A stretch of DNA of 64,000 nt, taken from positions 804,124,817 to 804,188,816 of the forward strand of contig CM061142.1 in NCBI GenBank assembly GCA_030789695.1. The letters are read 5' to 3'. Position 1 is the first letter of the stretch. The number at the start of each line of letters is the position of its first letter. This document shows, piece by piece, positions 7,053 to 60,380 of the stretch. The stretch is from Scilla litardierei. Taxonomy: Eukaryota > Streptophyta > Magnoliopsida > Asparagales > Asparagaceae. The notes beneath the pieces were generated by a model. The model ran no database searches, was not told where the DNA came from, and worked only from the letters and a program-made list of their open reading frames with translations. The translations under genes were made by a program, and so were the position numbers.

Positions 7053-7718
7053 CACTCGGGCCGAGTGGGAATATGACTCGGCCGAGTGGAAATTTCAGCA
7101 ATGCAGCATCACATCAACTTACAGAAATTCTCCAGATTTTATCTGACCTCAGATTGGTGTGTTCTTAGTGGCGTTGGAACCTTCATGAAGTCTACTATCC
7201 ATAAAAAATATGATAAAAATACTTTGATTGCTAGAATGATAGCAGATTTCAAAAGAGTGGGAGGATATCTGAAAATCTGGGCGCTCGTGTCATTCGCGTC
7301 ACTCGGCCGAGTGGGATTCTTCACTCGGTCGAGTGGGCTTCTCTACTCAGCCGAGTAGGGTCTTCTGCGGTTCTCCAAAAATTCCAGAGAGTCTGCTTAG
7401 ATCTCAGGAGAAAAACCATGTAATACTCGAGCAAGTGGGCTTCTTCACTCGGTCGAGTGGGTTTTGCCACTCGGCCGAGTGAGGCTTCTCTAAATTCCAG
7501 TAAATTGGCCTCTTCTCTGGACGAAATCTCTGTAGAACTCGGACGAGTGGGCTTTCTCACTCGGCCGAGTGGTCTTCCTTGCTCATCCGAGTGAACATGG
7601 CAAATCTTCGGTGCGTATCTGTTTCACTCGGGCGATTGCGGTCCTTCACTCGACCGAGTGAGCAGTCTGCTCGGCCAAGTGGGGTACTTTTGAGCTCTTT
7701 TCTTCTCCTTTTCACCTC
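7053..7718 (-). repeat. ACTCGGCCGAGT dyad array, Ath-1 3' LTR
   Basis: About 14 variants of the 12-bp palindrome ACTCGGCCGAGT in clusters of two or three, with centres about 22 bp apart. In element sense the array ends about 93 bp upstream of the TATA-like box at 6960-6951. It matches the partner array at 12199-12799 except for an extra unit near 7325-7350. Confidence 0.85.
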
Positions 7719-7986
7719 CTCGTCGATTCTATCAAATTCCTTCTTCTTCCACTCATCATCCAATACAGTTAGCTTCTTGATAGGGCCATAGGCGATGCTC
7801 CGGTACATGTGCAAGTCATTTAAGCTCATTTTTGCTCCCGTTTGCTCCATATTCCCTGAAATCCGACAAAAACAAGAAATAGTGAAAAGTAACGTGATAT
7901 CGTCAAATACTCGTGAAAATCGCAATATGAGCAATCGAAATGGCGTGAAAACATGCAGAAAAAAGGTGTAAAATATGGAGCGATCA

Positions 7987-10946: not shown

Positions 10947-13104
10947 TGGTCGATCCAAAATGTAACCCTAGAGAGACCTAGCTATGGCATAAATTACACG
11001 GAGATAAATCCCTGGCAACGGCGCCAAAAACTTGATCGGCCCCGGATATACACCCGGAGAACGATTGTAGTTTTACCGCAAGCGCATGGTCAAGTGGCGA
11101 GCGGGTATCGAACATGAGGAGGTGGTGTTGGTTCCAATCTATCATAGGTTGGCTTGACTACGAATGTTTTATTAGTGGAGATGGTTATGGTATGATATAA
11201 TGGAAATGGTGGTGGATGTCGGTGTCGGTGTCGGTGATAAAGATGTTGGTCAAATAGAGATTCGAATTCAATTCAATAAAAGAGTCTAGGGCTAGGGAAT
11301 CCCCACTACGAATCGTCATTCATCCTTGTAAATAGTGAATCTCAATATTACTAGACTTGTGTTGAGGTGAACTAGTCGTAACTGAATATAGAACCAAGCT
11401 CACGCTCTCGCGCTATTGCCGGTCTATAGCAACCAAGATTAGGGACCACTCTCGTGCAAACCCTAACCTAAGCCACTATCATGAAGATCGACATCATCGT
11501 CCAATCGCACCTCGACCCCACTCTCGTGCAAACTAGAGTTACGATCTAGGTTGTGATAGTTCGTATTCGTCCAATATCTTGCAAACGAATATGTGTATAG
11601 ATTTATAATAAAAATCCTAACTTTGGTCCAATCTCTTGCAAACCAAGTCTAAAGAATCTCGATTATAAACCTAAATCGATATCTAGGCCTTCCCATCGAT
11701 TAGAATCCAATCTCTTGCAAACCCCAATCGATGGAAATCCCTAGCTATCCGTAATAAATCAATCACAACCTAACCTCCTAGCAATTCTATCAACTTAAAA
11801 ATTCATTCATCACAAATTTGAAATTAGATCCATAGGGTTCATCCCCATGTCCTAGAACAACAATCAACCAAGCATAGCAACAACGATATAAAAATCAATA
11901 TGAGACATTCCTTGTATATGAAAAGATAGCAAATCAAAGATTCAAATAATAAGAACAAAGATACTTAGCTTTGATGAAGAACTTCAATCTAATTACAAGC
12001 TTTTAGATCCAAGAGGGGGCCTAGGGCATGGCCTAACCTCTAAAATAATCACTAAGAAAATATCATGGAACTCCCCTCTAATGACGGATACAAACCCCTT
12101 ATATAGCCCCACAAAACCCAAGCAAATAACCCTTCAAAACACTCTCAAATTCGTGCTGTAAATCAGCATGGCCGCAACTTAAAATCTGGGCCCGCCGTCA
12201 CTCGGGCCGAGTGGGAATATGACTCAGCCGAGTGGAAATTCCAGCACTGCAGCATCAACTTGCAGAAATTCTCTAGATTTCATCTGACCTCGGATTGGTG
12301 CGTTCTTAGCGGCGTTGGAATCGTCATGAAGTCTACTATCCATAAAAAATATGAGAAAAATAATTTGATTGCTGAAATGATAGAAGAATTCAAAAGAGTG
12401 GGAGGATGTCTGAAAATCTGGGCGCTCGTGTCATTCGCGTCACTCGGCCGAGTGGGCTTCTTTACTCGACCGAGTAGGGTCTTCTGCGGTTCTCCAAAAA
12501 TTCCAGAGAGTCTACTTAGATCTCAGGAGAAAAACCCTGTAATACTCGGGCGAGTGGGCTTCTTCACTCGGTCGAGTGGGTTTTGCCACTCGGCCGAGTG
12601 AGGCTTCTCCAAATTCCAGTAAATTGGACTCTTCTCTGGACGAAATATCTGTAGCACTCGGGCGAGTGGGCTTTCTCACTCGGCCGAGTGGTCTTCCTTG
12701 CTCAGTCGAGTGAACATGGCAATCTTCGGTGCGTATCCATTTCACTTGGGCGAGTGCGGTCCTTCACTCGACCGAGTGAGCAGTCTGCTCGGCCGAGTGG
12801 GGTACTCTTGAGCTCTTTTCTTCTCCTTTTCGCCTCCTCATCGATTCTATCAAATTCCATCTTCTTCCACTCATCATCCAACACAGTTAGCTTCTTGATA
12901 GGGCCATAGGCGATGCTCCGGTACATGTGCAAGTCCTTTAAGCTCATTTTTGCTCCCGATTGCTCCATATTCCCTGAAATCCGACAAAAACAAGAAATAG
13001 TGAAAAGTAACGCGATATCGTCGAATACTCGTGAAAATCGTAATATGAGCAATCGAAATGGCGTGAAAACATGCAGAAAAAAGGTGTAAAATATGGAGCG
13101 ATCA
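10947..13104 (-). repeat. Ath-1 5' LTR
   Basis: In sense: TGATCGCTCC at 13104, dyad array (12799-12199), TATA-like box near 12105-12095, and an end at 10947 reading ...GATCGACCA. The stretch 11032-10947 is an 86-bp extension holding a second PBS-like copy (11026-11009). The right flank GTGGC (13105-13109) is the TSD. Confidence 0.87.
12199..12799 (-). repeat. ACTCGGCCGAGT dyad array, Ath-1 5' LTR
   Basis: Dyad centres on the + strand are at about 12206, 12227.5; 12447.5, 12469.5; 12549.5, 12571.5, 12593.5; 12661.5, 12683.5, 12705.5; 12749.5, 12771.5, 12792.5. Spacing inside clusters is 21-22 bp. Three clusters are full triplets, about 90-110 bp apart. Confidence 0.88.
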
Positions 13105-15281
13105 GTGGCAAGGATTGGTCCTGCCCCGGAGTCTTTGAGAGGGCGGGTATTGGGCCGTCGCCTCCCCGCAGCCTCTATAGTCGGACGGGTATTGGGCCGT
13201 CACCTACCCCGCATATGGCACTCCGGTTTGGGTGGCGAAGCTCAGTAAGCTTGCCCCGGAGGTCTTCACTGGAGGGGGGAGCGAGCACGTAGCTCGACCC
13301 GTGCCCTTCTCCGGTTTGGGTGGTGAGGATTGGTCCTGCCCCGGAGTCTTTGAGAGGGCGGGTATTGGGCCATCGCCTCCCCGCAGCCTCTATAGTCGGA
13401 CGGGTATTGGGCCGTCGCCTACCCCGCATATGGCGCTCCAGTTTGCATGGCAAAGCTCAGTAAGCTTGCCCTTGAGGTCTTCACTGGAGGGGGAGCGATC
13501 ACGTAGTTCGGCCCGTGCCCTTCTCCGGTTTGGGTGGCGAGGATTGGTCCTGCCCTGGAGTCATTGAGAGGGCGGGTATTGGGTCGTCGCCTCCTCGCAG
13601 CCTCTATAGTCGGAGGGGTATTGGGCCGTCGCCTACCCCGCATATGGCGTCCCAGTTTGGGTGGCAAAGCTTAGTAAGCTTGCCCTGGAGGTCTTCACTG
13701 GAGGGGTGAGCGAGCGCGTAGCTCGGCCCGTGCCCTTCTCCGGTTTGGGTGGCGAGGATTGGCCCTGCCCCGGAGTCTTTGAGAGGGTAGGTATTGGGCC
13801 ATCGCGTCCCCGCAGCCTCTATAGTCGGACAGGTATTGTGCCGTCGCATACCCCGCATATGGCGCTCCAGTTTGGGTGGCGAAGCTCAGTAAGCTTCCCC
13901 CGGAGGTCTTCACTGGAGGGGGGAGCGAGCGCGTAGCTCGACACGTGCCCTTCTCCGGTTTGGTTGGCGAGGATTGGTCCTGCTCCGGAGTCTTTGAGAG
14001 GGAGGGTATTGGGTCTTCGCCTCCCCGTAGCCTCTATAGTCGAACGAGTATTGGGCCGTCGCCTACCCCGCATATGGCACTCCGTTTTGGGTGGCGAAGC
14101 TAAGTAAGCTTGCCCCGGTGGTCTTCACTGGAGGGGGAGCGAGCGCGTAGCTCGGCCCGTGCCCTTCTCCGGTTTGGGTGGCGAGGATTGGTCCTGCCCC
14201 AGAGTCTTTGAGAAGGCGGGTATTGGGCCGTCTCCTTCCCACAGCCTCTATAGTTGGACGGGTATTGGGCCGTCGCCTACCCCGTATATGGCGCTCCGGT
14301 TTGGGTGACGAAGCTCAGTAAACTTACCCCTGAGGTCTTCACTGGAGGTGGGAGCGAGCGCGTAGCTCGGCCCGTGCCCTTCTCCGGTTTGGGTGGCGAG
14401 GATTGGTCTTGCCCCGGAGTCTTTAAGAGGGTAGGTATTGGACCGTCGCCTCCCCGCAGCCTCTATAGTCGGACGGGTATTAGGCCGTCGCCTACCCCGC
14501 ATATGGCGCTCCGGTTTGGGTGGCGAAGCTCAGTAAGCTTGCCCCAGAGGTCTTCACTAGAGGGGGGGTGCGAGCGCGTAGCTCTGCCCGTGTCCTTCTC
14601 CGGTTTGGGTGGCGAGAATTGGTCCTGTCCCGGAGTCTTTGAGAGGGCGGATATTGGGCCGTCGCCTCCCCGCAGCCTTTATAGTCGGACGGGTATTGGG
14701 TCGTCGCCTATCCCGCATATGGCGCTCCGGTTTGGGTGGCGAAGCTCAGTAAGCTTGCCCCGGAGGTCTTCACTGGAGGGGGGAGCGAGCACGTAGCTCG
14801 ACCCGTGCCCTTCTCCGGTTTGGGTGGCGAGGATTGGTCCTGCCCCGGAGTCTTTGAGAGGGCGGGTATTAGGCCGTCGCCTCCCCACAGCCTCTATAGT
14901 CGGACGGGTATTGGGCCATCGCCTACCCCGCATATGGCGCTCCGGTTTGGGTGGCGAAGCTCAGTAAGCTTGCCCCAGAGGTCTTCACTGGAGGGGGAGC
15001 GAGCACGTAGCTCGGCCCGTGCTCTTCTCCGGTTTGGGTGGCGAGGATTGGTCCTACCCCGGAGTATTTGAGAGGGCGGGTTTTGGGCCGTCGTCTCCCT
15101 GCAGCCTCTATAGTCGGACGGGTATTGGGCCGTCACCTACCCCGCATGTGGTGCTCCGGTTTGGGTGGCGAAGCTCAGTAAACTTGCCCCGGAGGTCTTC
15201 ACTGGAGGGGGGAGCGAATGCGTAACTTGGCCCGTGCCCTTCTCTTGTTTGGGTGGCGAGGATTGGTCCTGCCCCAGAATC
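13105..15281. repeat. 215-bp tandem array, right part
   Basis: Continues the 3551-4966 array after Ath-1. Unit landmarks are at about 13280, 13494, 13709, 13924, 14138, 14353, 14569, 14784, 14998 and 15213 (steps 214-216). The first piece (13105-13279) completes the unit that began at 4922. The full array held about 16 complete units, some 3.6 kb, before Ath-1 arrived. It stops abruptly at 15281 within a unit. Confidence 0.9.
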
Positions 15282-15572
15282 TTGTGCCTTAAACTGAAAC
15301 TTTCAAGTGGAGACAACGAGATTTGAAAATTCGAAGAAAAAGAAGTATTTCATTAAGGGCTTACAATTACTGGCAGCGTTTTAGTAGGCGCTTCGCGTTT
15401 CACGAATGACCCAGATTTCTCCTGTCGAGGGTCGTTGGTACGTATGTGGCCGGTCCGACGATGTCGCATGGTCCCTCTCATTTTGCTGCCAGCTTCCCTT
15501 GGCGAGTGGTCTTGACGGGCTTGGAGGTAGCGCCTCTGGGGAATTGATCATCGATTCCGAAGCTCCGTTTTC
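15282..15572 (-). other. Junction where Tat-1 pol is missing
   Basis: Sequence between the protease region and the tandem array. It has no RT, RNase H or integrase motif on either strand. An autonomous Tat element would have several kilobases of pol here, so an internal deletion is inferred. Confidence 0.55.
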
Positions 15573-23645: not shown

Positions 23646-24806
23646 CCCCGAATCATTCCACTTGTACTTTTTCTTATGGCTTTACAACCAACATAGTCTG
23701 CGTCATTAGACGAAGTTAAATTAAATGTGCTGCCTTTGGGATAAAATAGTCCAAAGTCAGAAGTGGTTTTAAGATATCTAAATATGTATTTTACCATTTT
23801 AAGATGTGATTCTCTACGATCACATTGAAATCTAGCACATGCACAAACACTAAACATAATATCAGGTCGGCTAGCGGTTAAATAAAGCAGAGAACCGACC
23901 ATATCTTGATATGTTTTCTGATCGACCTTTTTACCTGTTTCGTCTTTGTCTAAAGAAGTAGATGTTGCCATAGGTATGTTCTTCCCTGATGTGGTTTCCA
24001 TCCTGAACCTTTTGATCAAGTCTTTGGCATACTTCGTTTGATAAATAAAGGTTCCTTCTTTTCCTTATTTGATTTGCAATTCGAGAAAGTATGTGAGCTT
24101 GCTCATATGGCTCATTTCGAATTCCTCCTGCATTAACTTAGCAAACTCTTGACAAAGATCTTCATTAGTAGATCCGAAAATGATGCCATCTACGTAAATT
24201 TGGATAAGAATAATATCATCATGGATTTTCTTAACGAATAAAGTGATATCTATTTTTCCAACAATGTAACCTGAGTCAATTAAGAATTTTCTTAATCTTT
24301 CATACCAAGCTCTTGGAGCTTGTTTTAGGCCATACAAGGCTTTGTTAAACTTGTACACATATTCTTTTTTTATCATGTTCAAATTCGTTAGGTTGTTCAA
24401 CGTAGACTTTCTCCTTTATGTATCCATTCAGGAATGCGCTTTTCACATCCATTTGGTATAATTTAAAGTTTTTATATGATGCAAATGCAAGTAGCATCCT
24501 AATAGATTCTAATCTAGCAGCATGAGCGAAAGTTTCATCGAAATCTATACATTCTTCTTGTGAGTATCCTTGTGCTACTAACCTTGCTTTATTTCTTATT
24601 ACATTTCCATCTTCGTCTAGTTTGTTTCGATACACCCATTTAGTGCCGATAACTGGACGATCTTCCGGTCTAGGTACTAACTCCCATACTTGATTTCGCT
24701 CAAATTGTAGAAGTTCTTCTTGCATGGCTTCAATCCATGCTTCATCTGCAAAAGCCTCATCTACCTTTTTCGGCTCAATGTTAGAAACAAATGCAACATG
24801 TGTCAA
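23646..24806 (-). pseudogene. Cop-1 reverse transcriptase and partial RNase H
   Basis: RNA-dependent DNA polymerase region. In sense: VPRPEDRPVIGTKWVYRNKL, DVKSAFLNGYIKEKVYVEQP, YGLKQAPRAWYERLRKFL, then IYVDGIIFGST where copia RT normally has YVDD; the second catalytic aspartate is glycine. RNase H starts around ASRPDIMFSVC and stops at KSTSGMIRG, where the Ath-2 LTR begins (23645). Frame breaks lie near 24350-24400 and 24020-24065. Not functional. Confidence 0.82.
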
Positions 24807-24835
24807 GTGTTCTATTTGAGATCTAGTTCTAATTC

Positions 24836-27554: not shown

Positions 27555-27751
27555 AGTGTTGAATCCTGTGGATGGCAAACAACGCTAGAAGGGGGTTGAA
27601 TAGTGTTTATAAAAATAAACTTTTTCTTTTTAATAGATTAGCACAATTCAAAGCCTTCTAATGTTGCCTAAGAAACCAAGTAGAGTGATCTACCCTTGGT
27701 TCTTAATCAACTTAAGTAATCTTAAAGGCAGATCAGAAATAAAACTCTTCT

Positions 27752-27785
27752 GGTAGTCGACTCCCTAAAAACAGTAGTCGACTCC
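27752..27785 (-). repeat. Extra AGTCGACT dyad pair near the Cop-1 LTR 3' end
   Basis: Two GTAGTCGACTCCC copies with centres at 27758.5 and 27779.5, 21 bp apart. The solo LTR of the same family (58662-58900) lacks this pair at the matching place. Confidence 0.75.
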
Positions 27786-28030
27786 CAGAGTGATATTATG
27801 CACAGCTCAGTTAAAGGAATACTTAATGAAGATATAAAAGATTACACAGAAATATAAGATAGAATCTTTTATACAGCAAATACAAAAATTGATCTTGCGA
27901 TGTATTATAAATGAGTTACAATATAATACTAAATGAATCAAGATAAATAAATAGAGATAAACAATCATAGAGAGTGCAAACGCAAACATAAGGATTTTTA
28001 TCCTGGTTCCCTACAACCCTGGGTACGTCC

Positions 28031-30533
28031 TGTCACGCCCCGCTTCCCAAAAATATGGAGGCAAAGCGTGAGAAGGTCCGCTCAGGCTTGGAGCTGCGAA
28101 GCTCCAGCCTGTAAAGCGTCTGGAATAACACACAGGTCCCTGTAATGTGACACGGAACAAAGATAACAAAAATAGAAAAAGAGAGCAAATAAATAAATTA
28201 TTAATCTCCAAGTCCAAATAATATTTCAACAACCAGAAATGCCACCAGGCAGACAAAAGAGTCTAAAAAAGAAAAGGCCCAGCATGGCCAACAAGAAAAC
28301 GTCTAATAAAACGGTGCTACTCACCGACAAACAACAAAGTCTAAAGAAAGAACTGCGAAGGAACACTAGGACTGGTCACCGGTGTCCTCGTACTCAACGT
28401 CAACAACGGGATCGGGCATGTACTCCACGAACTCGTCGCCCTCAACAGCAATCTCTGGCTCAGCAACTAACATGCGACTCCCAAAGAGAAGGGGCACATG
28501 TCAGCAAGTCTACAAGACTTGTGCAAGGAAACTAAGGAAGGTAAAAACAACCTAGCAGTTCTAGAGCATGGTATAACATGACATATTATGCAAGGTGAAC
28601 AGCATGTAAAGTAAACAGCAGTTTATGACATGGCATGATTTAAAGCATGGCAGGCAAAGCATGACATGGGCAAGTAAACATTTACAAGGACAAGGACAAG
28701 TATTGTAAGCACGGCGTGCACAGAGATTCCGCCCTTTGGCTAGAGTGGCTGTACAGGCCAACTCTTACGCTCAAGTGACCGTTTATCCCTACCCCTCCAC
28801 GTGTATCGAGCCAGGGCCTTACCCCCGACATGGAATGCTCACTTCTGGATCACGAGCCAGGAAGTGTTTTTAATAAGGATGGCGTAGGGTTATGCCCGCC
28901 TAACGGGTGCCTAGCCATAACACGGAAACACGGATTTGTACAAGGATTTGTAGCGTGTGCTACGATGCAACATGCAAACATGATATGTAAAATGGATGCA
29001 CATGACAATTATTCAAAATGAAATTGCGTACCGTTAAAGAAATTTAAACATGACAGGCATTTCATGACATGATGTGACAAATGGCAATTCTAGCTTCGTT
29101 GTCAAGCTAGAATTTGAATTTGCGCCTAGACCGCTATCATTTTACGATCTAGTCTCTTTCACGCTAAATCGAGGTAATGGCCTAAAAACATGGCCTAAAG
29201 CAAGGTTGGCAAGTTTCACTTGCCTGGCACTGAGGTTGTTGTTCGACGAGAGTCTCAAGATCGGTATCCTACGGAAATTGGGTTCACTGTTTTGGCAAAA
29301 TAGAAAATTGGAATCAAGATCTAATCCATATTTTGTATTGGAATCCTATATCGTCTAGTAATCAATTTTTTTATTAGGTTTTCTAGATTACGGTGAGGGT
29401 TATGGGGAAATTAATGGTAGATCTACTAACCGTATTTGTAGCAGAAGATTGATGATCACGATGCCTACGAACTGCATGTAGAAGAGGATCTCGCTGGATT
29501 TCGGATTGCCGTCGCTAAACCGAGCTTAGCACGACAACGGAAGAGGCGATCCGGAAGAACTATGGTTGAAAGGATTCCTTACGACCGAATTGCTACAGAT
29601 CTGGAGATTGGAGTTCGTCGGGAAAATCTGGACCAAAAGAGATTTTAGGGTTTTTTGGAGATCGACCGGTGGCCTACGGGGTGATCACCGATGCAACGGA
29701 GGGTGAGAGGAGGCTCGGGAGGGTGGAGGAAGGCAAGAGGAAGATCGGGGGATGATTGGGGAAAAAGATCAGCTAGGAGAAGTGAATAAAGAATATAAAA
29801 TGCATAGGGTTTAAATAGAAAGAATAGGCGGCGGCTACGACTTAACCTAGGTTTACTGGGCAATTTAGTCGGTCAATGAAGAGCGGTCGACCGACTAGTT
29901 TGGGATCTAGTCGGTCGGTCGCCCAACTGACACCGACTAAAATCAAATAGTGAACAGGGTTTGGTACATGGAAGGCATAATTAGTCGGTCTGTGAAGACC
30001 CGTCGACCGACTAGTTTGGGATCTAGTCGGTCGGTGAACGTTCATGAACCGACTAAAGGTCGAATAAGATAGATAGTGAGTACTGACAGTTAGTCGGTCT
30101 GAGAACAAGTCTTGACCGACTAGTTTCACAACTAGTCGGTCGATGAAGGTGCTAGACCGACTAATTGTAAACAGTAACTCAGTCGAAATTTACTGACAAG
30201 AACTAGCCGGTCTGAGAAGTGTTGCCGACCGACTAGATTACAATCTAGTCGGTTGGCTCTCCTTCATGAACCAACTAAGATGCATGAAAAATGCCGATTC
30301 GAAGCGCGAAGCTTCGGGAAGATTCCTATGGCCTCTAGGATCACTCTAGTTCAAAGATTATGACGCTATGAAGCTTATCGTAAGAATACTTACTCCAAGC
30401 CCCAACGAGATATGCTACGGAAGATAAAAGATCAGAACGAACCGAACGAAACGTCTGACAGAGAAAACACACAAGGAGAGAACATCCAATATTATTATTC
30501 ATATAATATTCATTACAAAAACCGGTCGTTACA
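28031..30533 (-). mobile_element. Del/Tekay-like solo LTR nested in the Cop-1 LTR
   Basis: 2503 bp with ends TGTCACGCC... and ...GGTCGTTACA, flanked by CGTCC (28026-28030 and 30534-30538). The Cop-1-family solo LTR reads straight through the empty site, which fixes both borders. TGTAACGACC-type ends and the length fit LTRs of Del/Tekay chromoviruses; no internal domain is present to prove it. Orientation is taken as minus because a dyad array (30278-29866) then precedes a TATTTAAA box (29817-29810). No gene seen. Confidence 0.85.
29866..30278 (-). repeat. ACCGACTAG/CTAGTCGGT dyad array, Del-like LTR
   Basis: Four units starting at 29866, 29982, 30091 and 30204 on the + strand. Each has four 9-bp arms, alternately TAGTCGGTC and ACCGACTAG, at offsets 0, 24, 41 and 65-66. 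Neighbouring arms form inverted repeats, giving three dyad centres about 21 bp apart per unit. Unit period is about 109-116 bp. Confidence 0.9.
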
Positions 30534-31249: not shown

Positions 31250-31350
31250 GGTAGTCGACTCCCTAGGATTGCTAGTCGACTCCTAGTGTGTTTCAGGAGA
31301 AAATGATTCTCAGCTGGTAGTCGACTCCCACTCCTTGGTAGTCGACTCCC
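31250..31350 (-). repeat. AGTCGACT dyad array, Cop-1 5' LTR
   Basis: Four GTAGTCGACTCCC-type copies; centres at 31256.5, 31277.5, 31322.5 and 31343.5. Pairs are 21 bp apart. In sense the array ends about 115 bp upstream of the TATA-like box. Confidence 0.85.
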
Positions 31351-44794: not shown

Positions 44795-46516
44795 TGTTGA
44801 GTATTGATTCCCCAAATTTGGTTTTGGATGATGAGCAAACATAAATATCGTGTACTAACTGTTTGTGAGCGCAGTTATGGAGATCGTCGCCAAAAGAATA
44901 TGTACATCTAAAGCGACGTCTCAAGACTTCTCAATACGCGTGATCGTGTGCCTGAAGCTTCGTTGAAGCTCTAGGAGCAATATTGAAGTCAAGAAGAATG
45001 AAGATTGAAGCTTTGAAGATGGTTCGTCATGTATTATTTATTGTCTTCTAACTTCATAGATTAGACAGTTAAGCCTTGAGTAGGACTTACATTATTATCT
45101 TCATTTCGCTCATATCTTAGAGCTAGGTTTATCATAGAAGCCATTAGAAACTTTCCCGAAGCTTATCGCTTCTTCCCTTGGCTTCTAGTGCATCTTAGTT
45201 GGTTCAAGTAGAGTCACCAACCGACTAGATGACGATCTAGTCGGTCGACAACTCTTCATGAACCGACTAGATGTCCTAACTCATTTCAGCTCATTCCCTG
45301 TTGATCAATTAGTCGGTCAAAGAAGGTTCACCAACCGACTAGATGACGATCTAGTCGGTTAAGAATCCGTCACAGACCGACTAGTTATCATTGCCTAAAT
45401 TCAGCTTGAGTTACTGTTTCGAGTTAGTCGGTCTAAGAATGATTGTCGACCGACTAGTTGTGAAACTAGTCGGTTGGAATCTGTTCTCAGACCGACTAGT
45501 TCAACTTGCATTCAGACTATTTATTTTGACTCTTAGTAGGTCCAAGTTCACTCACCGACCGACTAGTTGTGAAACTAGTCGGTTGGCAAGTCTTCTTAGA
45601 CCGACTAGTTCTTTATGTCTGAACTTTCTCTTTTGGCTGTCGAGCTATAAGTCGGTTCATGTTGAATCACCGACCGACTAGTTCATTAACTAGTCGGTCA
45701 GTGATCCTTCTTAGACCGACTAGTCTGCTTCAGAATAGAGCCATTGGAGCATTTATTGCACGATTTTCTCTCCTCTCTCCTCTCTATCCTATATATACTT
45801 GAAGGGCTTCTTCAAGGATATCAAGGCTGATTATTTGAGATATTTGAGAATCAAAGAGGAGCCATTCAATCTCATTCAAAGCTCATTCATTTCTAATCTT
45901 GAATCTCTCCCTCACTCTTATTTCAAAAGAGAGATTCATTGATTGTGAGCCTTCCAAGCCAAGGAGCTTGATCCAAGGTCACCAACATCCACCTAGGACT
46001 CCATTGCTGGTCATCTTCAAGGAGCTAGGGTTTGGTGACATCTTCCTCCTCAAAATCCCTTCTTGCCCTAATTTGATAAGTATACTCAAGGCAAAGGATT
46101 TCGTGGTAGTGTTTCATTATTTCATTTCAATTGATATTGCAATTGTGTCTCTCGGTTGTGAGAGAGGGTGTGATCCCGGTTTGTGGGAGTCACATGTCAT
46201 TTGTATGATTTGGTCTTGTGAAGGTTTTTCACAAGAATTTCATAGTGCTAAATCTTGAGTTAGGGTTTCTAACTCAAGTATCCGGAGGGGATCCGGGTGG
46301 TTGGGACGTAGGATCACCGGGAACAAGTTGGGGAGACTTAGGTGGATCCGAACCCGTTACATGTTTTGTTTGCGTTTGATAATTCTTGTTGATTGTTGTT
46401 TATTCCGCATTGTCGTTTGTTTCTTGCACAATAATTAGGAATAACTATCTTGATTATTTTAAAGTACTATTCACCCCCCCTCTAGTACATGTGCAGTAGC
46501 TTCACAGGGCACTACA
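44795..46516 (+). repeat. Cop-3 5' LTR
   Basis: TGTTGAGTATTGATTCC... to ...GGGCACTACA, 1722 bp. Dyad array at 45197-45723, then TATATATA at 45790-45797, 66 bp after the array ends. The stretch from there to the PBS has short open frames only. Confidence 0.85.
45197..45723 (+). repeat. ACCGACTAG/CTAGTCGGT dyad array, Cop-3 LTR
   Basis: Five units starting at 45197, 45310, 45425, 45534 and 45649. Each has four 9-bp arms (TAGTCGGTC, ACCGACTAG, CTAGTCGGT, ACCGACTAG) at offsets 0, 24, 41 and 66 in every unit. Adjacent arms form inverted repeats, so each unit has three dyad centres 21 bp apart. The first arm of units 1, 4 and 5 has one or two changes. Confidence 0.93.
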
Positions 46517-46564: not shown

Positions 46565-48287
46565 ATGACGAATAATGACTACAACGTCTTCAAAGATCGT
46601 CAAGGATCTTCTTCAGTTATGGAAGGACAATCCTCTGTCAGGCCTCCTCACTTCAACGGTACCAACTATGGGTACTAGAAATGCCGGATGGAAACCTTCC
46701 TCCGGAGCGCTTCACTTTGGAGATCCACGATGACAGAGTATGTCGAGCCCGCCGAAGAAGATTTCGCGAAGTGGACTCCCGCAGAGGTCGCCGCAGAGGT
46801 AAGCAATGCCAAGGCGATAAATGCCTTGCAATGTGCATTGGAGCCCGAAGACTTCAACAAGATATGTACATGTAAGAGTGCATATCAAGTATGGAACCAA
46901 CTCCTCATCCTACACGAAGGAACGAGTACGGTAAAAGATTCTAAACTCGTTGTCGCTAACAAAGAATTTGAGTTGTTTCACATGGAACAGGGTGAAACTA
47001 TGAAGGACTACTATGCTCGCTTCGTGGACATATCCAACGAATTGGAAGCACTTGGGAAGATCTACACCCAAAAGGAGAAAGTCACAAAGATAATCGACGG
47101 ACTTCCTTCTTGTTGGGAAAAGCGTACCTTCGCCATCAAGGAAGGTAACGATATGAATAAGTACACGGTTGTACAACTAATGGGTACCTTGTTGTCTTAC
47201 GAGGTACGCAAGGAAAGTAAGATCAAGATGAAGGAAAAGATGAAGGCGTACTTGAAGCAAGATGAGCCAAAGAAAAAGGTGATTGCGTACAAGGCCGCTC
47301 AATCTACCGATGATGAAGAATCGGAAGAAGAATCGGAAGAAGAGTTGGACATGGAAGCTTTGGCCGACTTGGCAAAGAAGTTCAACCGATTCTTCCGACA
47401 AGGTAAGTTGAAGAGTAAATCAAAATTTATTTCGACTAATGCTTCTACTCTCGTGTGTTATAAATGCAATAAGCCAGGACATATCAAGCCGGATTGTCCT
47501 CTATACAAACACAAGGAGAAGCGGAAGGCATCCAAGTACGACAAGTCGAGAAAGCACAAGAAAGGACTTGTCGGCACATTCACCGACTCCGAAGAGGACT
47601 CCTCAAGTGGAGAGTCGGATGATGAACGAGTGGAGAAAGCACACACGTGTTTCATGGGAAAAGAGGAACGTGTTCAAGAGACCTTCTCTGATGAAAGCGA
47701 AGATGAAAGCGATGAAAGCGAGGATGAAGGCGAAGAGGTAACCATGGATGAACTTAAATTAGCCAACGAACAACTTTGGTATAAGTTCTCTAAATTGGCT
47801 AGTAGATTTATTAAGACTAAAAATGAGTTAGATAGTCTTAAAACCTCGCCTAAGCCTTTCATCGTCAACAACGACACCGTTGTTGAAGATTTGAGAAATG
47901 AGATTGTAAATCTCAAATCTCAACTTGAGCATGTTCATATCGAGGATTCGGATGAACATGTGATAGCGGATTTGACGTCTCAAAACTCAACTTTGAGTAT
48001 TGAGAATAAAAATCTCAAATCACGTGTTTGCACACTCACATCGCAAGTGTCCACCTTGGATGCTTCGATGCATTCTCTCACCGAGAAATATGAGTGCACA
48101 TTGGGCCGAATCAATGAATTCAATAAAGGTAAGGGCCATTTGGATAATATCCTAAATGACTTACTTCCGGCCAATCATCACATTGGCTTGGGGTATAAGA
48201 TGGGAGAGTCATCCAAATCGTCCGCCACCTTTATTAGGCCAACGTCCGATGCTTCTACTAGTAGGAGTAAACACTTCATGGGTAGTT
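46565..48287 (+). pseudogene. Cop-3 gag, N-terminal and central part
   Basis: ATG 46565 (MTNNDYNVFKDRQGSSSVME). A TAG at 46676-46678 sits where copia gag has tryptophan in NYGYWKCRMETFL-type motifs. From 46688 the frame is open: the capsid region (YQVWNQLLILHEGTSTVKDS, GLPSCWEKRTFAIKEG), acidic tracts, the zinc knuckle CYKCNKPGHIKPDC near 47455, a second acidic run and a coiled coil (ENKNLKSRVCTLTSQVSTL). Ath-3 interrupts it at 48287 (TSD TAGTT); the frame resumes after 56326. Confidence 0.85.
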
Positions 48288-50415
48288 TGATCGGTCCATA
48301 TTTTACACCTTTTTTCTGCATGTTTTCACGCCATTTCGATTGCTCATATTGCGATTTTCACGAGTATTCGACGATATTGCATTACTTTTCACTATTTCTT
48401 GTTTTTGTCGGATTTCAGGAAATATGGAGCGATCGGGAGCAAAAATGAGCTTAAGAGACTTGCACCCACTCCGGAGCGTCACCCAAGGCTCTTTTGAGGG
48501 CTATTCGGCGATGGGAGACGGGTGGAAGAAGAAGGAACTCCGTAGAAGCGACGGGGAGGAGAAACAGAGAAGATTGGGCATTTACAGCATGCCACTAGGC
48601 CGAGTGGAGCACTCACTCGGCCGAGCAAGAAGACCCCTCGGCCGACCCAATCGGACACGCTCCAACAGAAGGAATTGGGTGTGCACTCGGCCAAGGGACG
48701 ATATCCCACTCGGCCGAGTAAGAAGATCGCATCACCCGAGTGGCATGAGAAATCCACCATCAAAAGAGGCCGACTTACTGGAAATGTACAGGCTTTTGAC
48801 GGTTCTGACTCGGCCGAGTACCGAATGCCTCTCGACCGAGTGAGTAAAGTCACTCGGCCGAGTCACCTCCGAAGACAGACCCCCAAGACCTCCGACTTAC
48901 TGAAATTTTACAAGGTCTATCACTCGGCCGAGTAGAGAAGCCCACTCGACCGAGTGGAGAAGTCCACTCGGCCGAGTGATGCGGAGGACACGCAGCGCCC
49001 AGATTTTCAGATAGCCTCCCACTCTTTTGAAATCTGCTATCATTCCAGCAATCAAAGTATTTTTCTCATATTCTTTATGGATAGTAGACTTCATGAAGGT
49101 TCCAACTCCGCCAAGAACGCGCCAATCGGAGGTCAGATGAAATCTGGAGAATTTCTACAAGTTGACGCTGCAGTGCAGGAATTTCCACTCGGCCGAGTCA
49201 CATTTTCCACTCGGCCGAGTCAGAGGCGGGCCCAGATTTTAAGTTGCGGTTTGGGCTGTTTTTGGGCACGAATTTGAGGGGTTTTCTAGGGTTATTTTGC
49301 TAGGGTTTTGGGGTGATATAAAAGGGGTTTTGTAGCCACCATTAGATGGGATCCCCATTATGTTTTCTTAGCCCCCCATATGTTTTTCTTAGGATTATTT
49401 TAGAGGTTAGACCATGCCCTAGGCCCCCTCTTGGATCTAAAAGCTTGTATTTTGGATTGAAGATCTTCATCAAGCTAAGTATTTTCTTCTTTTTATTTGA
49501 ATCTTTGTTTTTCTATCTTTTTGTATGCAAGCAATGATTTCTATTGATTCTCATATCCTTATTGCTATGCTAGAGTAGATTTGTTGTTCTAGGGTTTGGG
49601 GATGAACCCTATGGATCTAATTTCATATTTGTGATGAATGAATTTCTAAATTGCTAGAATTGCTAGGAGGTTAGGTTGTGATTGATTTACTACGGATAGC
49701 TAGGGATTTCCATCGATTTGGGATTTGCAAGAGATTGGATTCTAATCGATGGGAAGGCCTAGATATTCGATTTAGATTTACAATTGGATTTCTCTAGATT
49801 TGGTTTGCAAGAGATTGGACCAAAGCTAGGATTTTTAATTGTAAATCTATACCAATATTCGTTTGCAAGAGATTGGACGAATACGAACTATCACAACCTA
49901 GATCGTGGCTCGAGTTTGCACGAGAGTGGGCTCGAGAAGCGATTGGACAATGATGTCGATCCTAATGTTAGTGGCTTAGGTTAGGGTGTGCACGAGAGTG
50001 GGCTCTAATCTAGGTTTGCTATACACCGGTAATAGCGCGAGAGCGTGAGCTTGGTTCTCTATTCAGTTACGACTAGTTCACCTCAACACAAGTCTAGTAA
50101 TATTGAGATTCACTATTCACAATGACGAATGACGATCCGTAGTGGGGATTTCCTAGCCCTAGACTCTTTTATTATATTGTATTTGAATCGATATCTGACC
50201 GATTTCTCTATCTCCGACACCGACATCCATCACCATTGCCATTACATTATACCATAACCATCTCCACCAATAAAACATTCGTAGACAAACCAACCTAGGA
50301 TAGATTGGAGCCAACACCACCTCCTCGTGTTCGATACCCGCTCGCCACTTTACCATGCGCTTGCGGTAAAACTACAGTTTCGTCGCTCCGGGACGTGTAC
50401 GCCCGGGCGCGATCA
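48288..50415 (+). repeat. Ath-3 5' LTR
   Basis: TGATCGGTCC... to ...GGGCGCGATCA. Dyad array 48593-49221; TATAAAAG at 49317-49324. Unlike Ath-1, it ends at CGATCA directly before agtTTTTGGCGCC, without the 86-bp extension. Confidence 0.92.
48593..49221 (+). repeat. ACTCGGCCGAGT dyad array, Ath-3 5' LTR
   Basis: Centres at about 48599.5, 48620.5, 48641.5; 48690.5, 48713.5, 48735.5; 48813.5, 48835.5, 48857.5; 48927.5, 48949.5, 48971.5; 49193.5, 49215.5. Four triplets and one pair, 21-23 bp inside clusters. The last dyad is about 96 bp before the TATA box. Confidence 0.9.
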
Positions 50416-54193: not shown

Positions 54194-56321
54194 TGATCGG
54201 TCCATATTTTACACCTTTTTTCTGCATGTTTTCACGCCATTTCGATTGCTCATATTGTGATTTTCACGAGTATTCGACGATATTGCATTACGTTTCACTA
54301 TTTCTTGTTTTTGTCGGATTTCAGAAAATATGGAGCGATCGGGAGCAAAAATGAGCTTAAGGGACTTGCACCCACTCCGGAGCGTCACCCAAGGCTCTTT
54401 TGAGGGCTATTCGGCGATGGGAGATGGGTGGAAGAAGAAGGAACTCCGTAGAAGCGACGGGAAGGAGAAACGGAGAAGATTGGGCATTTACAACATGCCA
54501 CTCGGCCGAGTGGAGCACTCACTCGGCCGAGCAAGAAGACCCCTCGGCCGACCCGACCGGACACGCTCCAACAGAAGGAATTGGGTGTGCACTCGACTGA
54601 GGGACGATATCCCACTCGGCCGAGTAAGAAGATCGCATCGCCCGAGTGGCATGAGAAATCCACAACCAAAAGAGGCCGACTTACTGGAAATGTACAGGCT
54701 TTTGACGGTTCCGACTCGACCGAGTACCGAATGCCTCTCGACCGAGTGAGTAAAGTCACTCGGCCGAGTCACCTCCGAAGACAGACCCCCAAGACCCCCG
54801 ACTTACTGGAATTTTACAGGGTCTATCACTCGGCCGAGTAGAGAAGCCCACTCGACCGAGTGGAGAAGTCCACTCGGCCGAGTGATGCCGAGGACACGCA
54901 GCGTCCAGATTTTCAGATAGCCTCCCACTCTTTTGAAATATTCTATCATTCCAGCAATCAAAGTATTTTTCTCATATTTTTTATGGATAGTATACTTCAT
55001 GATGGTTCCAACGCCGCCAAGAACGCGCCAATCGGAGGTCGGATGAAATCTGGAGACTTTCTGCAAGTTGACGCTGCAGTGCAGGAATTTCCACTCGGCC
55101 GAGTCACATTTTCCACTCGGCCGAGTCGGCGGCGGGCCCAGATTTTAAGTTGCGGTTTGGGCTATTTTTGGGCACGAATTTGAGGGGTTTTCTAGGGTTA
55201 TTTTGCTAGGGTTTTGGGGGGATATAAAAGGGGTTTTGTAGCCACCATTAGATGGGATCCCCATTATGTTTTCTTAGCCCGCCATATGTTTTTCTTAGGA
55301 TTATTTTAGAGGTTAGGCCATGCCCTAGGCCCCCTCTTGGATCTAAAAGCTTGTATTTTGGATTGAAGATCTTCATCAAGCTAAGTATTTTCTTCTTTTT
55401 ATTTGAATCTTTGTTTTTCTATCTTTTTGTATGCAAGCAATGATTTCTATTGATTCTCATATCCTTATTGCTATGCTAGAGTAGATTTGTTGTTCTAGGG
55501 TTTGGGGATGAACCCTATGGATCTAATTTCATATTTGTGATGAATGAATTTCTAAATTGCTAGAATTGCTAGGAGGTTAGGTTGTGATTGATTTACTACG
55601 GATAGCTAGGGATTTCCATCGATTTGGGATTTGCAAGAGATTGGATTCTAATCGATGGGAAGGCCTAGATATTCGATTTAGATTTACAATTGGATTTCTC
55701 TAGATTTGATTTGCAAGAGATTGGACCAAAGCTAGGATTATTAATTGTAAATCTATACCAATATTCGTTTGCAAGAGATTGGACGAATACGAACTATCAC
55801 AACCTAGATCGTGGCTCGAGTTTGCACGAGAGTGGGCTCGAGAAGCGATTGGACAATGATGTCGATCCTAATGCTAGTGGCTTAGGTTAGGGTTTGCACG
55901 AGAGTGGGCTCTAATCTAGGTTTGCTATAGACCGGCAATAGCGCGAGAGCGTGAGCTTGGTTCTCTATTCAGTTACGACTAGTTCACCTCAACGCAAGTC
56001 TAGTAATATTGAGATTCACTATTCACAATGATGAATGACGATCCATAGTGGGGATTCCCTAGCCTTAGACTCTTTTATTGTATTGTATTTGAATCGATAT
56101 CTGACCGATTTCTCTATCTCTGACACCGACATCCATCACCATTGCCATTACATTATACCATAACCATCTCCACCAATAAAACATTCGTAGACAAACCAAC
56201 CTAGGATAGATTGGAGCCAACACCACCTCCTCGTGTTCGATACCCGCTCGCCACTTTGCCGTGCGCTTGCGGTAAAACTACAGTGTCGTCGCTCCGGGAC
56301 GTGTACGCCCGGGCGCGATCA
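54194..56321 (+). repeat. Ath-3 3' LTR
   Basis: Same length as the 5' LTR (offset 5906). The dyad array is at 54499-55127 and TATAAAAG at about 55223. The right flank TAGTT is the TSD, followed by the rest of Cop-3 gag. Confidence 0.92.
54499..55127 (+). repeat. ACTCGGCCGAGT dyad array, Ath-3 3' LTR
   Basis: Copy of the 48593-49221 array with the same centre positions shifted by 5906. Single-base changes restore or break individual palindromes; for example the first dyad is a perfect ACTCGGCCGAGT here but ACTAGGCCGAGT in the 5' LTR. Confidence 0.9.
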
Positions 56322-57044: not shown

Positions 57045-57594
57045 TGTTGGATATGGACGACATAAATACACCCATGAGGGGATGTATGAGGGTATACTGA
57101 CCTCAGATGTCGCATGCACGAAGGCGTGCACCTAGGGAACCTTTTCTCGTGTGAAAAGGACCACTCGATAAGTGGAAAAAGCCACTCGATAAGTGGAAAA
57201 AGTCACTTTATAAGTGCATAAAGGCACTTGATAAGTGAATGAAGAAGAGGATAAATGAATGTGCTAATATAGGCTAATAAGCTTATAATTGGTTATTTCC
57301 TACAATAACTACCCCTAAAGCCTATAAATAGGACCCAAGGGTAAGGATTCATTCCACACTTTCCATGCCATAAGTTTGCATAAGGCATCTTATGTTCTTC
57401 TTCTCCCTTCCATTAAAATCCTCTTCTAGTTAGAGATTTAGGCGGTGAAACTCTGCTTCGATCCTCCGTGACGAAGTATCGACCGTTGTGGCAAATCCGA
57501 GGGCGAAGTTCCGAGATTACGGTGCCGCGTACGTAAGCGTAAGTCTCGACTTTATTATTCGATCCTAACGTCCTTGTTTTGTCAGGATCCCACA
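57045..57594 (+). repeat. Cop-4 5' LTR
   Basis: TGTTGGATATGGACG... to ...GGATCCCACA, 550 bp. A four-copy 21-bp dyad array lies at 57161-57238 and TATAAATA at 57323-57330, 85 bp after the array. Confidence 0.85.
57161..57238 (+). repeat. CCACTCGATAAGTGG dyad array, Cop-4 LTR
   Basis: Four copies starting at 57161, 57182, 57203 and 57224, exactly 21 bp apart. The first two are identical inverted repeats (CCACT...AGTGG); the last two have changes that mostly keep the arms. They are separated by aaaaag-type spacers. Confidence 0.93.
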
Positions 57595-57607: not shown

Positions 57608-58661
57608 CATACGGGTTCGCCCCGGTCAAACCGCCGCCACGTCGAACCGATGAACGAGACGTTGTGTTTTTCACGAATGGGTATCCTACCATTATGGATA
57701 TGGTAGGAACGCTTCGTGATGGAGAGAATGCAGCGGTTGTTCTTTTCACGTTAGGGTCTCCTACCATTACGGATATGGCAGGAACTCTCCGTGACGGGAA
57801 GAACCGACCGTTCATATCGTCAAGCTCGCACTCTTCATGGATGCTGAGTCTCCATTCATAGGGAATGTGAACTCTCTTCATGTGGAGCGTGTAGTTTACG
57901 AACTTTAAAGTATGTTATTTTTTCATTTTGGCACACGGCCATTAGAGAATAACTACTTTCTCGAAGAACGGGTGCTTCATCGACGAACGGGTGTTTCATC
58001 GAAGAAGACGACAGTGGTTATTCCCATCGGAGAAGATGACTTTTGGTGCATGATCATCATGGCCAAATGGGCTATGGAGGCAATGCATCCCCCCTCCCCA
58101 TGCGGAGGGGGTTGGCTACGGCCAATAACCACCACGGCCACCCTCCGGCGGGGTGTGCGGCCAACCCCATGCAAGGGGGTGGCCGGCCATGGCCATATGG
58201 GCCATGGCCGGCCAAGGCCAAAGGGCCATGGCCGGCCCTGGCCGGCCCTGGCCAGGCCGGCCTCGGCCAGGGCCAAGGGGCCCTGGCCGGCCTCGGCCAG
58301 GCCAGAGCCGGCCTCTGGCCGAGGCCTGGCCAGGGCCAGGGGGGCCCTGGCCGGCCTCTGGCCGAGGCCAGAGTCCCTGGTCGGCCTCGGCCAGGCCTGG
58401 CCGGCCCTGGCCTGGGGCCAGGGGCCTGGCCGGCCCTGGCTGAGGCCAGGGCCGGCACCCTGGCTGACCTGGGCCAGGGCAGAGGGGCCAGGGCCCCTGG
58501 CCGACCAGGGCAGAGGCCCTGGCCGGCCCTTGGCCAGCCTCGGCCAGGGCAGAGGCCCTGACCGGGGGGTGCCAGATCCTTGGTCGGTATTGGTCGACCA
58601 ATCCGGGATTTTTGGTCGACCAATTCGGCGAGAGGCCTTGGTCGATGTAACACGAACATGC
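57608..58661 (+). other. Cop-4 leader, first part
   Basis: Long stretch between PBS and gag without a credible gene. It holds a 75-bp direct duplication at about 57668-57815 (each copy with a CCTACCAT...ATGGTAGG-type hairpin), a GGCC-rich tract (58160-58565) and a pair of TTGGTCGACCAA palindromes (58590-58624). Open frames across the GGCC tract are an effect of composition. It ends at the CATGC TSD of the solo LTR. Confidence 0.65.
58160..58565. repeat. GGCC-rich palindromic low-complexity tract
   Basis: About 400 bp built of GGCCGGCC, GGCCATGGCC, GGCCAGGCC and similar units, densely self-complementary and far more GC-rich than its surroundings. Open in many frames on both strands. Confidence 0.9.
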
Positions 58662-60380
58662 TGTTGGATCCTGTGGATGGCAAACAACACTAGAAGGGGG
58701 GTTGAATGGTGTTGTGTATATAGTAAAATTTTTCGCTCAACGATATTAACACAAATAAATTCCTTCTAATGTTGCCTAAGAAACCAAGTAGAGTGATCTA
58801 CGCTTGGTTCTTAATCAACAAAACAATCTTAACAAGAATATGAAATAGATTGGATTAAGATCAGATAAATATAACTTTGACAAATAGATCTTTACAAATA
58901 GATTTATACACAGCGGAAATTAAAGATACAATCTTTTCAATAAGTTAACAATGAATTACAAAGATGAACAATTAATAAGTAAAGAATACTTGTACAAGAA
59001 AGATAACAAATCACAGAAAAACAAACGCAGACAAAAAGGATTTTTATCCTGGTTCCTCGCAACCCAGGTACGTCCAGTCCCCGACCAATCCGGTACGAGA
59101 TTTCCACTATCTGCCTTGGCAAATACAATTACCTAACTTCACTCGTTAGGATTTCCAACGACCTAGCCTTGACCAGGATTTCCAACCACAACACCTAGAC
59201 TTGTCTAGGGTTTACCCTTGCCTCACAAACCGAGGACTTTCCAACTGGCAACAACTAGACTTGTCTAGTGTTCCAACAATCAACACAATGAGAATTTATC
59301 CAATACTCCACAATAATTGATAGAGATTGGTTTATACACCCGATTCTATAGCCAATCAAAGTTAAGACAATTTGTGTAGTGGCTTGATAGAATGATAGTC
59401 TAGATCACACACAGATATGAGAGAAGTTCTTTGTGATCTAGAGCTTTTCAAAAAATCCTTTCAAATAAAAATAAAGAGAATAATAGTAAGGATTTTGAAA
59501 ACGATTTAGCCAATAAAAAATAAGAGTATGATCTTCAAAAAAAATAAGAAAGTATTGCAAGATCAAATAAAAATTAAATTTGCTAGAGAGAAAATTGAGA
59601 GCTTTGAATTCAAGAGAGTTTTCACAATAGATTTGATTTTTCAATGTTGTATTTTTCACAAAAGAATTCAGCTCTATTTATAGGGAAAAACTGAGATTTG
59701 AATTTCAAATTTCGTTTGACTTTTGTCCCAAAAATTACGGAGTAAATTGCTCAAAAGATTTCAAAATTCAAATTCAAAAACGTCTGAAATTTACAGCTGG
59801 TAGTCGACTCCCTCATATAGGTAGTCGACTCCCAGAGGGATCCAGGAGTTTTTGATCTCTGACAAGTAGTCGACTCCCTACTTTTGGTAGTCGACTCCCA
59901 GAGGATTTTTTCCTGCTGTTCTTCTAGTCAGATAAGTAGTTAGCTCTAGGGTGCGTGGAGTTTCACTACGAAAATTATGAAGTGACTAGAAAAGCTCTCG
60001 AAGATTATTTTGAAGATAATTAAAAATATTTTCGAAATTGTTTTATGTGTGTGTTTTGTCTATTTGATATGGCTTTGACAAATACCCTAAAAGACACGAC
60101 ACACTCACTATGGACTCAGAACATGTCTTCGGAAGTTTGGTAAACTTGATGAAGTGAAAGCGAGCTTCTCTTTGTGCTTTTTGTTCTGTTTGAGCTTGAG
60201 CTTCATCACTTGAGTTTAGTCATGTTCATCTTTGTCTTTGAGCGTTGAAGTGTGCTTCTTTGAGTATGAGTAGAGCTTCGCAAATTTTACACATCTTAAG
60301 TGTAGTGTAGTTAGTACACTAAGCTTTCATTTGGTGTGCTCATCATCAAAATCACTTGGGGTGGACTTCAATTTCCATCA
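58662..60380 (-). mobile_element. Solo LTR of the Cop-1 family
   Basis: 1719 bp, TGTTGGATCC... to ...TTTCCATCA on the + strand, flanked by CATGC (58657-58661 and 60381-60385). It aligns with the Cop-1 5' LTR on both sides of the latter's nested solo LTR. In sense TATAAATAGAG lies at 59683-59673. No internal sequence, so it formed by LTR-LTR recombination. Confidence 0.92.
59799..59899 (-). repeat. AGTCGACT dyad array, Cop-1-family solo LTR
   Basis: Four GTAGTCGACTCCC copies; centres at 59805.5, 59826.5, 59871.5 and 59892.5. Pairs are 21 bp apart. In sense the array ends about 115 bp upstream of the TATA box. Confidence 0.9.

Follow-up and report, generated by a model that had tools for sequence, protein, structure and literature searches.

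Palindromic arrays with a two-turn pitch upstream of TATA-like boxes in LTR retrotransposons of Scilla litardierei

Why should retrotransposons of different families carry, shortly before their promoters, short inverted repeats set about two turns of the DNA helix apart? The question is raised by a stretch of 64,000 nucleotides of Scilla litardierei (contig CM061142.1, positions 804,124,817 to 804,188,816, forward strand), hereafter the window, which is plant DNA made of nested long terminal repeat (LTR) retrotransposons. An earlier note had claimed that the LTRs of two Athila-like elements (Ath-1 and Ath-3), a Del-like solo LTR and the LTRs of the copia elements Cop-3, Cop-1 and Cop-4 hold dyads phased at 21-22 bp, and our motif scans confirm this: the dyads stand in groups of two to four with centres 21-22 bp apart (21-23 bp in the Athila-like LTRs) and with irregular distances between the groups. 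The arrays, their phasing, their position, the conservation of dyads relative to linkers and a block common to two of the LTR families are direct observations. The sequence and spacing evidence supports selection, and hence function, of the arrays, which we think are probably promoter-proximal enhancers bound cooperatively by dimers of host transcription factors. All results refer to one window with at most four independent motif systems, in which LTR ends were placed by eye from TG/CA termini, target-site duplications (TSDs) and primer sites; the bounds used in our scripts for the Cop-1, Cop-3 and Del-like LTRs deviate from these by up to 4 bp.

The Athila-like elements have long LTRs, and the motif ACTCGGCCGAGT (at most 3 mismatches) was found 13, 12, 14 and 14 times in four of them, in total 53 matches, among which the one at 49105 is probably spurious. 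Adjacent matches are 21-23 bp apart in 32 of 49 cases (24 at 22 bp, 6 at 21 bp and 2 at 23 bp), the remaining 17 gaps measure 44-225 bp, and none falls between 24 and 43 bp. Dyads missed by the scan at 7053 (1-bp insertion) and 48730 (four mismatches) were recovered by an alignment that is hard to place within the diverged linkers; when degenerate copies are included, the groups hold 3, 3, 3, 3 and 2 dyads. The array of the left Ath-1 LTR (about 5053-7986, minus strand) occupies 7053..7680 with dyads at 7626/7648/7669, 7537/7559/7581, 7425/7447/7469, 7301/7323/7345 and 7053/7076, and that of the right Ath-1 LTR (about 11033-13104, minus strand) occupies 12222..12798 and lacks one 22-bp unit; both were delimited by scan and alignment. 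In Ath-3, which is flanked by the TSD tagtt, the array of the 5' LTR (48288-50415, plus strand) lies at 48594..49220 with dyads at 48594/48615/48636, 48685/48708/48730, 48808/48830/48852, 48922/48944/48966 and 49187/49209, and the 3' LTR (54194-56321, plus strand) has the same array at 54500..55126. The Ath-1 bounds in the motif scan, the shuffle tests and the direct-repeat count described below started 84 bp outside the LTRs.

The Del-like and Cop-3 LTRs are built from a nine-position half-site, TAGTCGGTC, which occurs four times per unit in the orientations +,-,+,- with spacings of 23/19/23 bp, so that inward and outward dyads alternate with their centres 21 bp apart. Over nine units the intragroup gaps are exact in 26 of 27 cases, the exception being 22 instead of 23 bp, and the seven intergroup gaps measure 44-51 bp; this count ignores weak extra half-site matches at two mismatches. 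The Del-like solo LTR (28031-30533, TSD cgtcc) has four units at 29866..30277, each with four half-sites TAGTCGGTC/GACCGACTA, one of them spaced 23/19/22; its minus-strand sense is assigned because it is homologous with Cop-3. The Cop-3 LTR (44795-46516, plus strand) has five units of the same half-sites, spaced 23/19/23, at 45196..45722. The pattern CGGTC-N5-GACCG was also tried and gave 0 matches, because the true centres are longer.

The two Cop-1 copies share dyads GGTAGTCGACTCCC with identical spacing of 21, 45 and 21 bp. In Cop-1a (LTR 27557-31904, minus strand, interrupted by the Del-like solo LTR) they lie at 31250/31271 and 31316/31337 (31250..31350), and in the solo LTR Cop-1b (58663-60381, TSD catgc, minus strand) at 59799/59820 and 59865/59886 (59799..59899). 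An additional pair, 21 bp apart, was found in the 3' part of the Cop-1a LTR (27752..27786, dyads 27752/27773, minus strand). The Cop-1a LTR also contains a perfect (TG)34 dinucleotide run at 31507-31574 that is almost missing in Cop-1b. The Cop-4 LTR (about 57046-57594, plus strand) has four dyads CACTYGATAAGTG with a pitch of 21, 21 and 21 bp at 57162..57237. The proposal that the motif differs by family is thus borne out for Athila, Cop-1 and Cop-4, and fails for Del-like and Cop-3, which have the same motif. The Cop-4 leader, outside the mapped LTRs, holds a TTGGTCGACCAA dyad pair 22 bp apart at 58590..58623 (no strand assigned), and at 58060-58560 it is dense in GGCC palindromes (GGCCATGGCC, GGCCGGCC and others) at many spacings.

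Cop-2 and Ath-2 had been described as lacking such arrays. This stands for Cop-2, whose LTR shows no 20-23 bp dyad spacing above shuffles by the wider definition given below, and only roughly for Ath-2, which by the same definition is slightly above them (6 pairs vs a maximum of 5): some of its dyad centres are 20-23 bp apart, the dyads are unlike, and no motif is repeated. In the Ath-2 LTR these dyads cluster at 22960-23135, several of them GC-rich (GGGC...GCCC type). Cop-2 carries four AGGGGGAG tracts before its 3' LTR (37374-37617), a Sirevirus hallmark.

The earlier note had expected an excess of 20-23 bp dyad spacing over shuffled sequences, and in the LTRs of the window the pooled distances do peak at 21 and 22 bp. 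Over nine LTRs (one per element; the left Ath-1, Ath-3 3', Cop-2 3' and short Cop-1a pieces were omitted) dyad centres are 21 bp apart in 35 pairs vs a shuffled mean of 4.9, 22 bp apart in 20 vs 4.2 and 42 bp apart in 17 vs 4.0. In 12 pooled control regions the counts are 15 vs 10.9 at lag 21 and 21 vs 11.0 at lag 22, and 11 of the 12 show no 20-23 bp excess beyond shuffles. The highest peak of the pooled LTRs, at lag 11 (45 pairs vs 5.4), was rejected as an independent signal since it follows from one dyad lying midway between two equal dyads in a 22-bp repeat.

The outcome depends on how a dyad is defined. Perfect 12-bp palindromes form a 20-23 bp pair only in the two Ath-3 LTRs, one in each. 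When one mismatched pair is allowed, all four Athila LTRs exceed all 200 shuffles, three Cop-1 pieces give p values of 0.010, 0.025 and 0.060, and no excess is seen in Del-like (p 0.135), Cop-3 and Cop-4, which this definition misses because their dyads are gapped or odd-centred; it was therefore rejected as the sole one. By a wider definition, set after the motifs had been seen, all seven array LTRs that were run surpass the maximum of 30 shuffles, three by no more than a single pair. Short direct repeats agree with this picture: within the window 29 of 77 dyad-bearing pairs are spaced 21-22 bp vs 23 of 344 non-dyad pairs, and 26 of 44 when the Cop-4 leader is excluded, the count taking in both LTRs of each Athila element and hence being non-independent.

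A TATA-like box lies downstream of the array, in element sense, in all nine LTR copies or pieces examined, by patterns set after the sequences had been seen. Arrays had been said to end about 50-120 bp before such a box, and we find 49-117 bp: 94-97 bp in Athila (gatataaaag, 97 bp past the array, in the Ath-3 5' LTR), 49 bp in Del-like, 68 bp in Cop-3, 116-117 bp in Cop-1 and 86 bp in Cop-4 (cctataaatagg). The arrays start 117-559 bp into the LTR or LTR piece.

If the dyads are functional, they should have changed less than their surroundings, and comparison between families shows this. Ath-3 5' and Ath-1 left differ at 26 of 168 dyad positions (15%), 34 of 87 linker positions (39%) and 86 of 353 intergroup positions (24%), whereas between the two LTRs within an Athila element dyads differ at 17 of 324 positions and the rest of the array at 45 of 901 (linkers therein 1 of 167). 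Fisher tests of dyads against the rest, which take sites as independent, give p 0.002 for Ath-3 5'/Ath-1 left, 3e-5 for Ath-3 3'/Ath-1 right and 0.88 within elements. The dyads were kept between families and not after insertion, thus they persisted in copies that stayed active and were lost from dead ones at the rate of other DNA. Similarly, Cop-1a and Cop-1b are identical at 53 of 56 dyad positions, 21 of 45 positions between the dyads and 804 of 1160 in the rest of the piece, and in the Del-like/Cop-3 half-sites five of nine positions are invariant in 36 of 36 copies, with linkers 45-56% identical. The spacing seems to be retained as well: the Del-like/Cop-3 linkers of nine units have accumulated 1 indel vs 6.8 expected (p 0.009), an expectation that takes the substitution-to-indel ratio of other LTR DNA in the window and a rough estimate from a tree of 9 rows without support values, with 37/38 columns counted. 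When Ath-1 is compared with Ath-3, indels within groups measure 1 bp or, in Ath-1 right, a whole 22-bp unit, and those between groups 1-10 bp; the list includes events found in a single LTR of a pair. The core ACCGAC occurs 17 times in the Del-like and 20 times in the Cop-3 LTR vs 0.9 and 0.4 in shuffles; it is contained in the half-site and corresponds to the C-repeat/dehydration-responsive element (CRT/DRE) core bound by DREB/CBF proteins.

The Del-like and Cop-3 LTRs share more than a motif. They align across about 590 bp of U3 at 68%, their linkers are 45% identical vs 25-26% in shuffles, and the linker sequences of the two are intermixed in the tree without support values. The similarity extends upstream of the arrays, where Cop-3 45017..45172 (plus strand) is homologous to Del-like 30301-30456 (minus strand) by local alignment: these approximately 160 bp score 92 vs a shuffled mean of 25 and a maximum of 45 (n=300). 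Downstream of the arrays no clear similarity between the two was found (p 0.06). Judged from these alignments, the U3 block is of single origin and common to two otherwise differing LTRs. Since it is common by descent, the window contains at most four independent motif systems.

A transfer of the block between Copia and Gypsy would require the Del-like LTR to be of Gypsy origin, which is presumptive: we place it in Del/Tekay Gypsy by its termini tgtaacgacc...ggggcgtgaca, and a text search for these ends gave, among the papers listed, no title on plant retrotransposons. The claim that two superfamilies carry the arrays therefore rests on the Athila-like elements. The Ath-3 5' LTR is followed at about 50421 by ttggcgccgttgccgggga, an Athila-type primer site, and such a site after the 5' LTR, TGGCGCCGTTGCCGGGGA, is of the tRNA-Asp type; the Athila-like elements are assigned to Gypsy from it. 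The Del-like solo LTR counts as a presumptive Gypsy element. The proposal of a recurring cis-regulatory module is supported by the two-turn phasing next to the promoter and by the evidence of selection; the five families are not five independent cases, as the Del-like/Cop-3 block is common. It could be that plant LTR promoters have a common grammar of two to four dyads with a two-turn pitch, at which Gypsy and Copia lineages arrived separately with different motifs, and that a U3 block was passed between superfamilies (Sirevirus and Del-like), enhancers evolving by module capture; we offer this wider view tentatively and would sooner doubt than adopt it.

How would such arrays act? As a promoter-proximal enhancer in U3, each would be bound by host transcription factors as dimers on the dyads, or on the half-sites in Del-like/Cop-3. 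The pitch of 21-22 bp within a group of two to four dyads would align the proteins along the same side of the helix, where neighbours could touch and so bind cooperatively, and the groups would act jointly on transcription from a TATA box lying 50-120 bp past the array. The device would be of the same kind as the palindromic boxes of Sireviruses, with up to four motifs and once common as a block to two families.

One would argue that the palindromes act as RNA: U3 is contained in the 3' end of the transcript, where it would fold into hairpins and form a small-RNA hot spot, the pitch being incidental. All seven arrays indeed fold better than shuffles (z -4.2 to -14.8) and the arrayless Cop-2 LTR piece does not (z +1.8), but a gag coding control also folds (z -4.6; 20 shuffles each), and tandem palindromes are bound to fold whatever their role. 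The changes within Athila dyads are 48 one-sided, 3 double with unlike changes and 0 compensatory, which fits sequence reading by a protein rather than RNA pairing; in Del-like/Cop-3 the inward pairs show 13 one-sided vs 2 compensatory changes and the outward pairs 4 vs 1. Folding also offers no reason for a fixed pitch. A known RNA family was sought and rejected, with 0 Rfam matches at gathering score. Hairpins as the primary role are unlikely, and less likely than a protein-bound enhancer, alongside which RNA folding may be a consequence. In maize Sireviruses, according to the available text of two papers, palindrome regions are small-RNA hot spots (PMC5311732, PMC10760457), and as the arrays here fold well, silencing may exploit their palindromes.

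A functionless minisatellite, in which slippage multiplied a unit of 21-22 bp that is palindromic by chance and the pitch just reflects the length of that unit, would account for the loss of exactly 22 bp, one unit, from Ath-1 right, for the GGGCTTCT-like sequence common to the Ath-1 linkers and for the likeness of the Cop-4 units. It does not account for Athila dyads kept between families, though not after insertion, while their linkers diverge faster than intergroup DNA, for Cop-1 linkers only 21/45 identical and yet unchanged in length, for the scarcity of linker indels in Del-like/Cop-3, or for the agreement of up to four motif systems on 21-22 bp. We consider it improbable; some arrays (Ath-1, Cop-4) probably arose by tandem duplication, and the data suggest that the pitch was retained afterwards. 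Alternatively, the arrays might bind a host silencer, or an antisilencing factor of element or host, and so determine the LTR's chromatin state in place of direct activation. A CpG stands in the dyad or half-site consensus of each family, and in VANDAL transposons the antisilencing factor VANC is recruited by arrays of short motifs. Yet Pfam named no DNA-binding antisilencing gene in a partial search of 20 of the 74 open reading frames (ORFs), and the location just ahead of the TATA box and the conservation in active lineages agree no less well with activation, which leaves a role in silencing or antisilencing quite unlikely.

Several observations weigh against the enhancer interpretation itself. 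The pooled controls are also raised at lags 13, 25, 28, 42, 49 and 53, the GGCC-rich Cop-4 leader, used as a control, has a strong 20-23 bp excess of its own (22 vs 1.7 shuffled), and the Cop-3 gag control equals its largest shuffle (5). The extra Cop-1a pair (27752..27786) lies downstream of the TATA-like box, and the 22-bp-spaced TTGGTCGACCAA pair of the Cop-4 leader does not follow the promoter-proximal rule. No array occurs in Cop-2, although it is Sirevirus-like. Helical phasing between groups was rejected, as the gaps modulo 10.5 scatter, and in Athila the contrast in indel size inside vs between groups is weak (p 0.06). The Cop-1 array lies in a stretch free of gaps that is the longest of 27 runs and was judged ordinary at that indel density, so that it was rejected as strong evidence alone. 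Finally, since Ath-1 and Cop-4 linkers are alike within an LTR, tandem duplication alone would give equal spacing there.

The remaining content of the window was surveyed by a Pfam scan of those 20 ORFs, out of 74 listed of at least 120 amino acids. The copia domains recognised were gag and zinc knuckle in both Cop-2 (34748-36209) and Cop-3 (46679-48445), reverse transcriptase together with integrase-related domains in Cop-1 (24348-26266, minus strand), and the range from gag to reverse transcriptase in Cop-4 (61122-63841). The three scanned internal ORFs of Ath-1, Ath-2 and Ath-3 gave no Pfam family up to E 10, and the Athila-like elements look non-autonomous. GC-rich 215-bp tandem repeats flank Ath-1 on both sides (3621-4966 and 13105-15283), and Ath-1 appears to have inserted into this repeat array. 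Outside its left LTR, at 4969-5052, the end of the Ath-1 internal region that holds the primer site occurs a second time, as unequal recombination between copies would leave it. The LTR itself carries an insertion of about 830 bp (6077-6905) that is bounded by the terminal inverted repeats GGGTGTGTTTGG...CCAAACACACCC, apparently has TAA duplications and resembles the PIF/Harbinger (Tourist) elements. Scans of viral-contig and genome-contig collections, presumed poor in plant DNA, gave no related locus, which does not argue that relatives are absent; in one viral-contig scan two stretches fit a pattern and neither was confirmed as related.

If the pitch is real across plants, it would provide a simple rule for LTRs with working promoters and for the host proteins they use, and conserved dyads with free linkers make the binding proteins findable via binding assays. 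The U3 block common to two families suggests promoter trading between unrelated retrotransposons, and this would matter both for the acquisition of new expression patterns by families and for the rewiring of nearby genes by LTRs.

The arrays had been thought to lack an earlier description, and this does not hold: Sirevirus LTRs have been described as carrying palindromic repeated-motif (RM) boxes upstream of their TATA box (Bousios 2010, PMC2829016). As far as the available text of that paper goes, RM boxes occur in 13 Sireviruses in 8 to 32 copies with a CGG-CCG core in 12 of 13, Tnd-1 being the exception (for example CGGTCGACCG in Vitis, CGGTCTGACCG in Osr10 and TCGGTCYCACCGA in Barbara); they begin 200-400 bp into the LTR and span 300-500 bp, the motif varying and the position being stable, and they are termed Sirevirus-specific in a comparison of Ty1/copia elements only (PMC2829016). 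The arrays in the window likewise lie in the first half of the LTR, shortly before a TATA-like box (9/9), but they are also found in Athila-like and in apparently non-Sirevirus copia (Cop-4) LTRs, and they are spaced at 21-22 bp where the available part of that text reports no fixed spacing (PMC2829016). At least eight copies are reached by the Athila LTRs (12-14), Cop-3 (20 half-sites) and Del-like (16 half-sites), and not by Cop-1 (6 and 4) or Cop-4 (4). The CGG-CCG core is present in Athila (CGGCCG) and, with a long centre, in Del-like/Cop-3 (CGGTC...GACCG), and absent from Cop-1 (GTCGAC) and Cop-4. With respect to the CpG island feature of RM boxes, observed/expected CpG in the array and in the rest is 1.10/0.56 in Cop-3, 1.22/0.92 in Del-like, 0.92-1.08/0.89-0.96 in Athila, 0.60-0.62/0.49-0.58 in Cop-1 and 0.75/0.98 in Cop-4. 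The Sirevirus junction CA/ATTGG/TATCAGAGC is exact in Cop-3 and has two changes in Cop-1, and the Athila primer site is different. A C-run near the LTR end, a candidate for the C-rich Sirevirus signal, is present in Cop-3 and Cop-1 and not in Cop-4. Given the junction and C-run of Cop-3 and the C-run of Cop-1, both are likely or near members of the known Sirevirus kind. The multiple AGGGGGAG polypurine tracts of Sireviruses number four in arrayless Cop-2, and the 3' ends of Cop-1, Cop-3 and Cop-4 lie outside the window.

Other systems resemble the arrays in part. The palindrome-rich LTR regions of maize Sireviruses, small-RNA mapping hot spots, are cis regions as here, with the focus of the accessible text on RNA structure and silencing (PMC5311732, PMC10760457), and one of these sources adds that transposable elements often have cis-regulatory regions built as arrays of repeats, sometimes palindromic (PMC10760457). 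The tomato Rider LTR carries dehydration-responsive elements comparable to the ACCGAC cores (17-20) of Del-like/Cop-3, but phased dyad groups are not mentioned in the part of that paper available (PMC6762207). Among the openly licensed papers listed by our searches we found neither a two-turn pitch nor arrays in LTRs of the Athila-like kind nor a U3 block common to unrelated LTR families. A comparable geometry exists in animals: the 21-bp repeats in the LTR of human T-cell leukaemia virus type 1 are U3 enhancer repeats at approximately two helix turns, which lie before a TATA box and bind cellular dimers. That virus differs in being an animal retrovirus with a motif like the cAMP response element and a virus-encoded co-activator, and no common descent is suggested. 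The arrays of the Scilla elements are a variant of the known palindromic-box device and not a new one.

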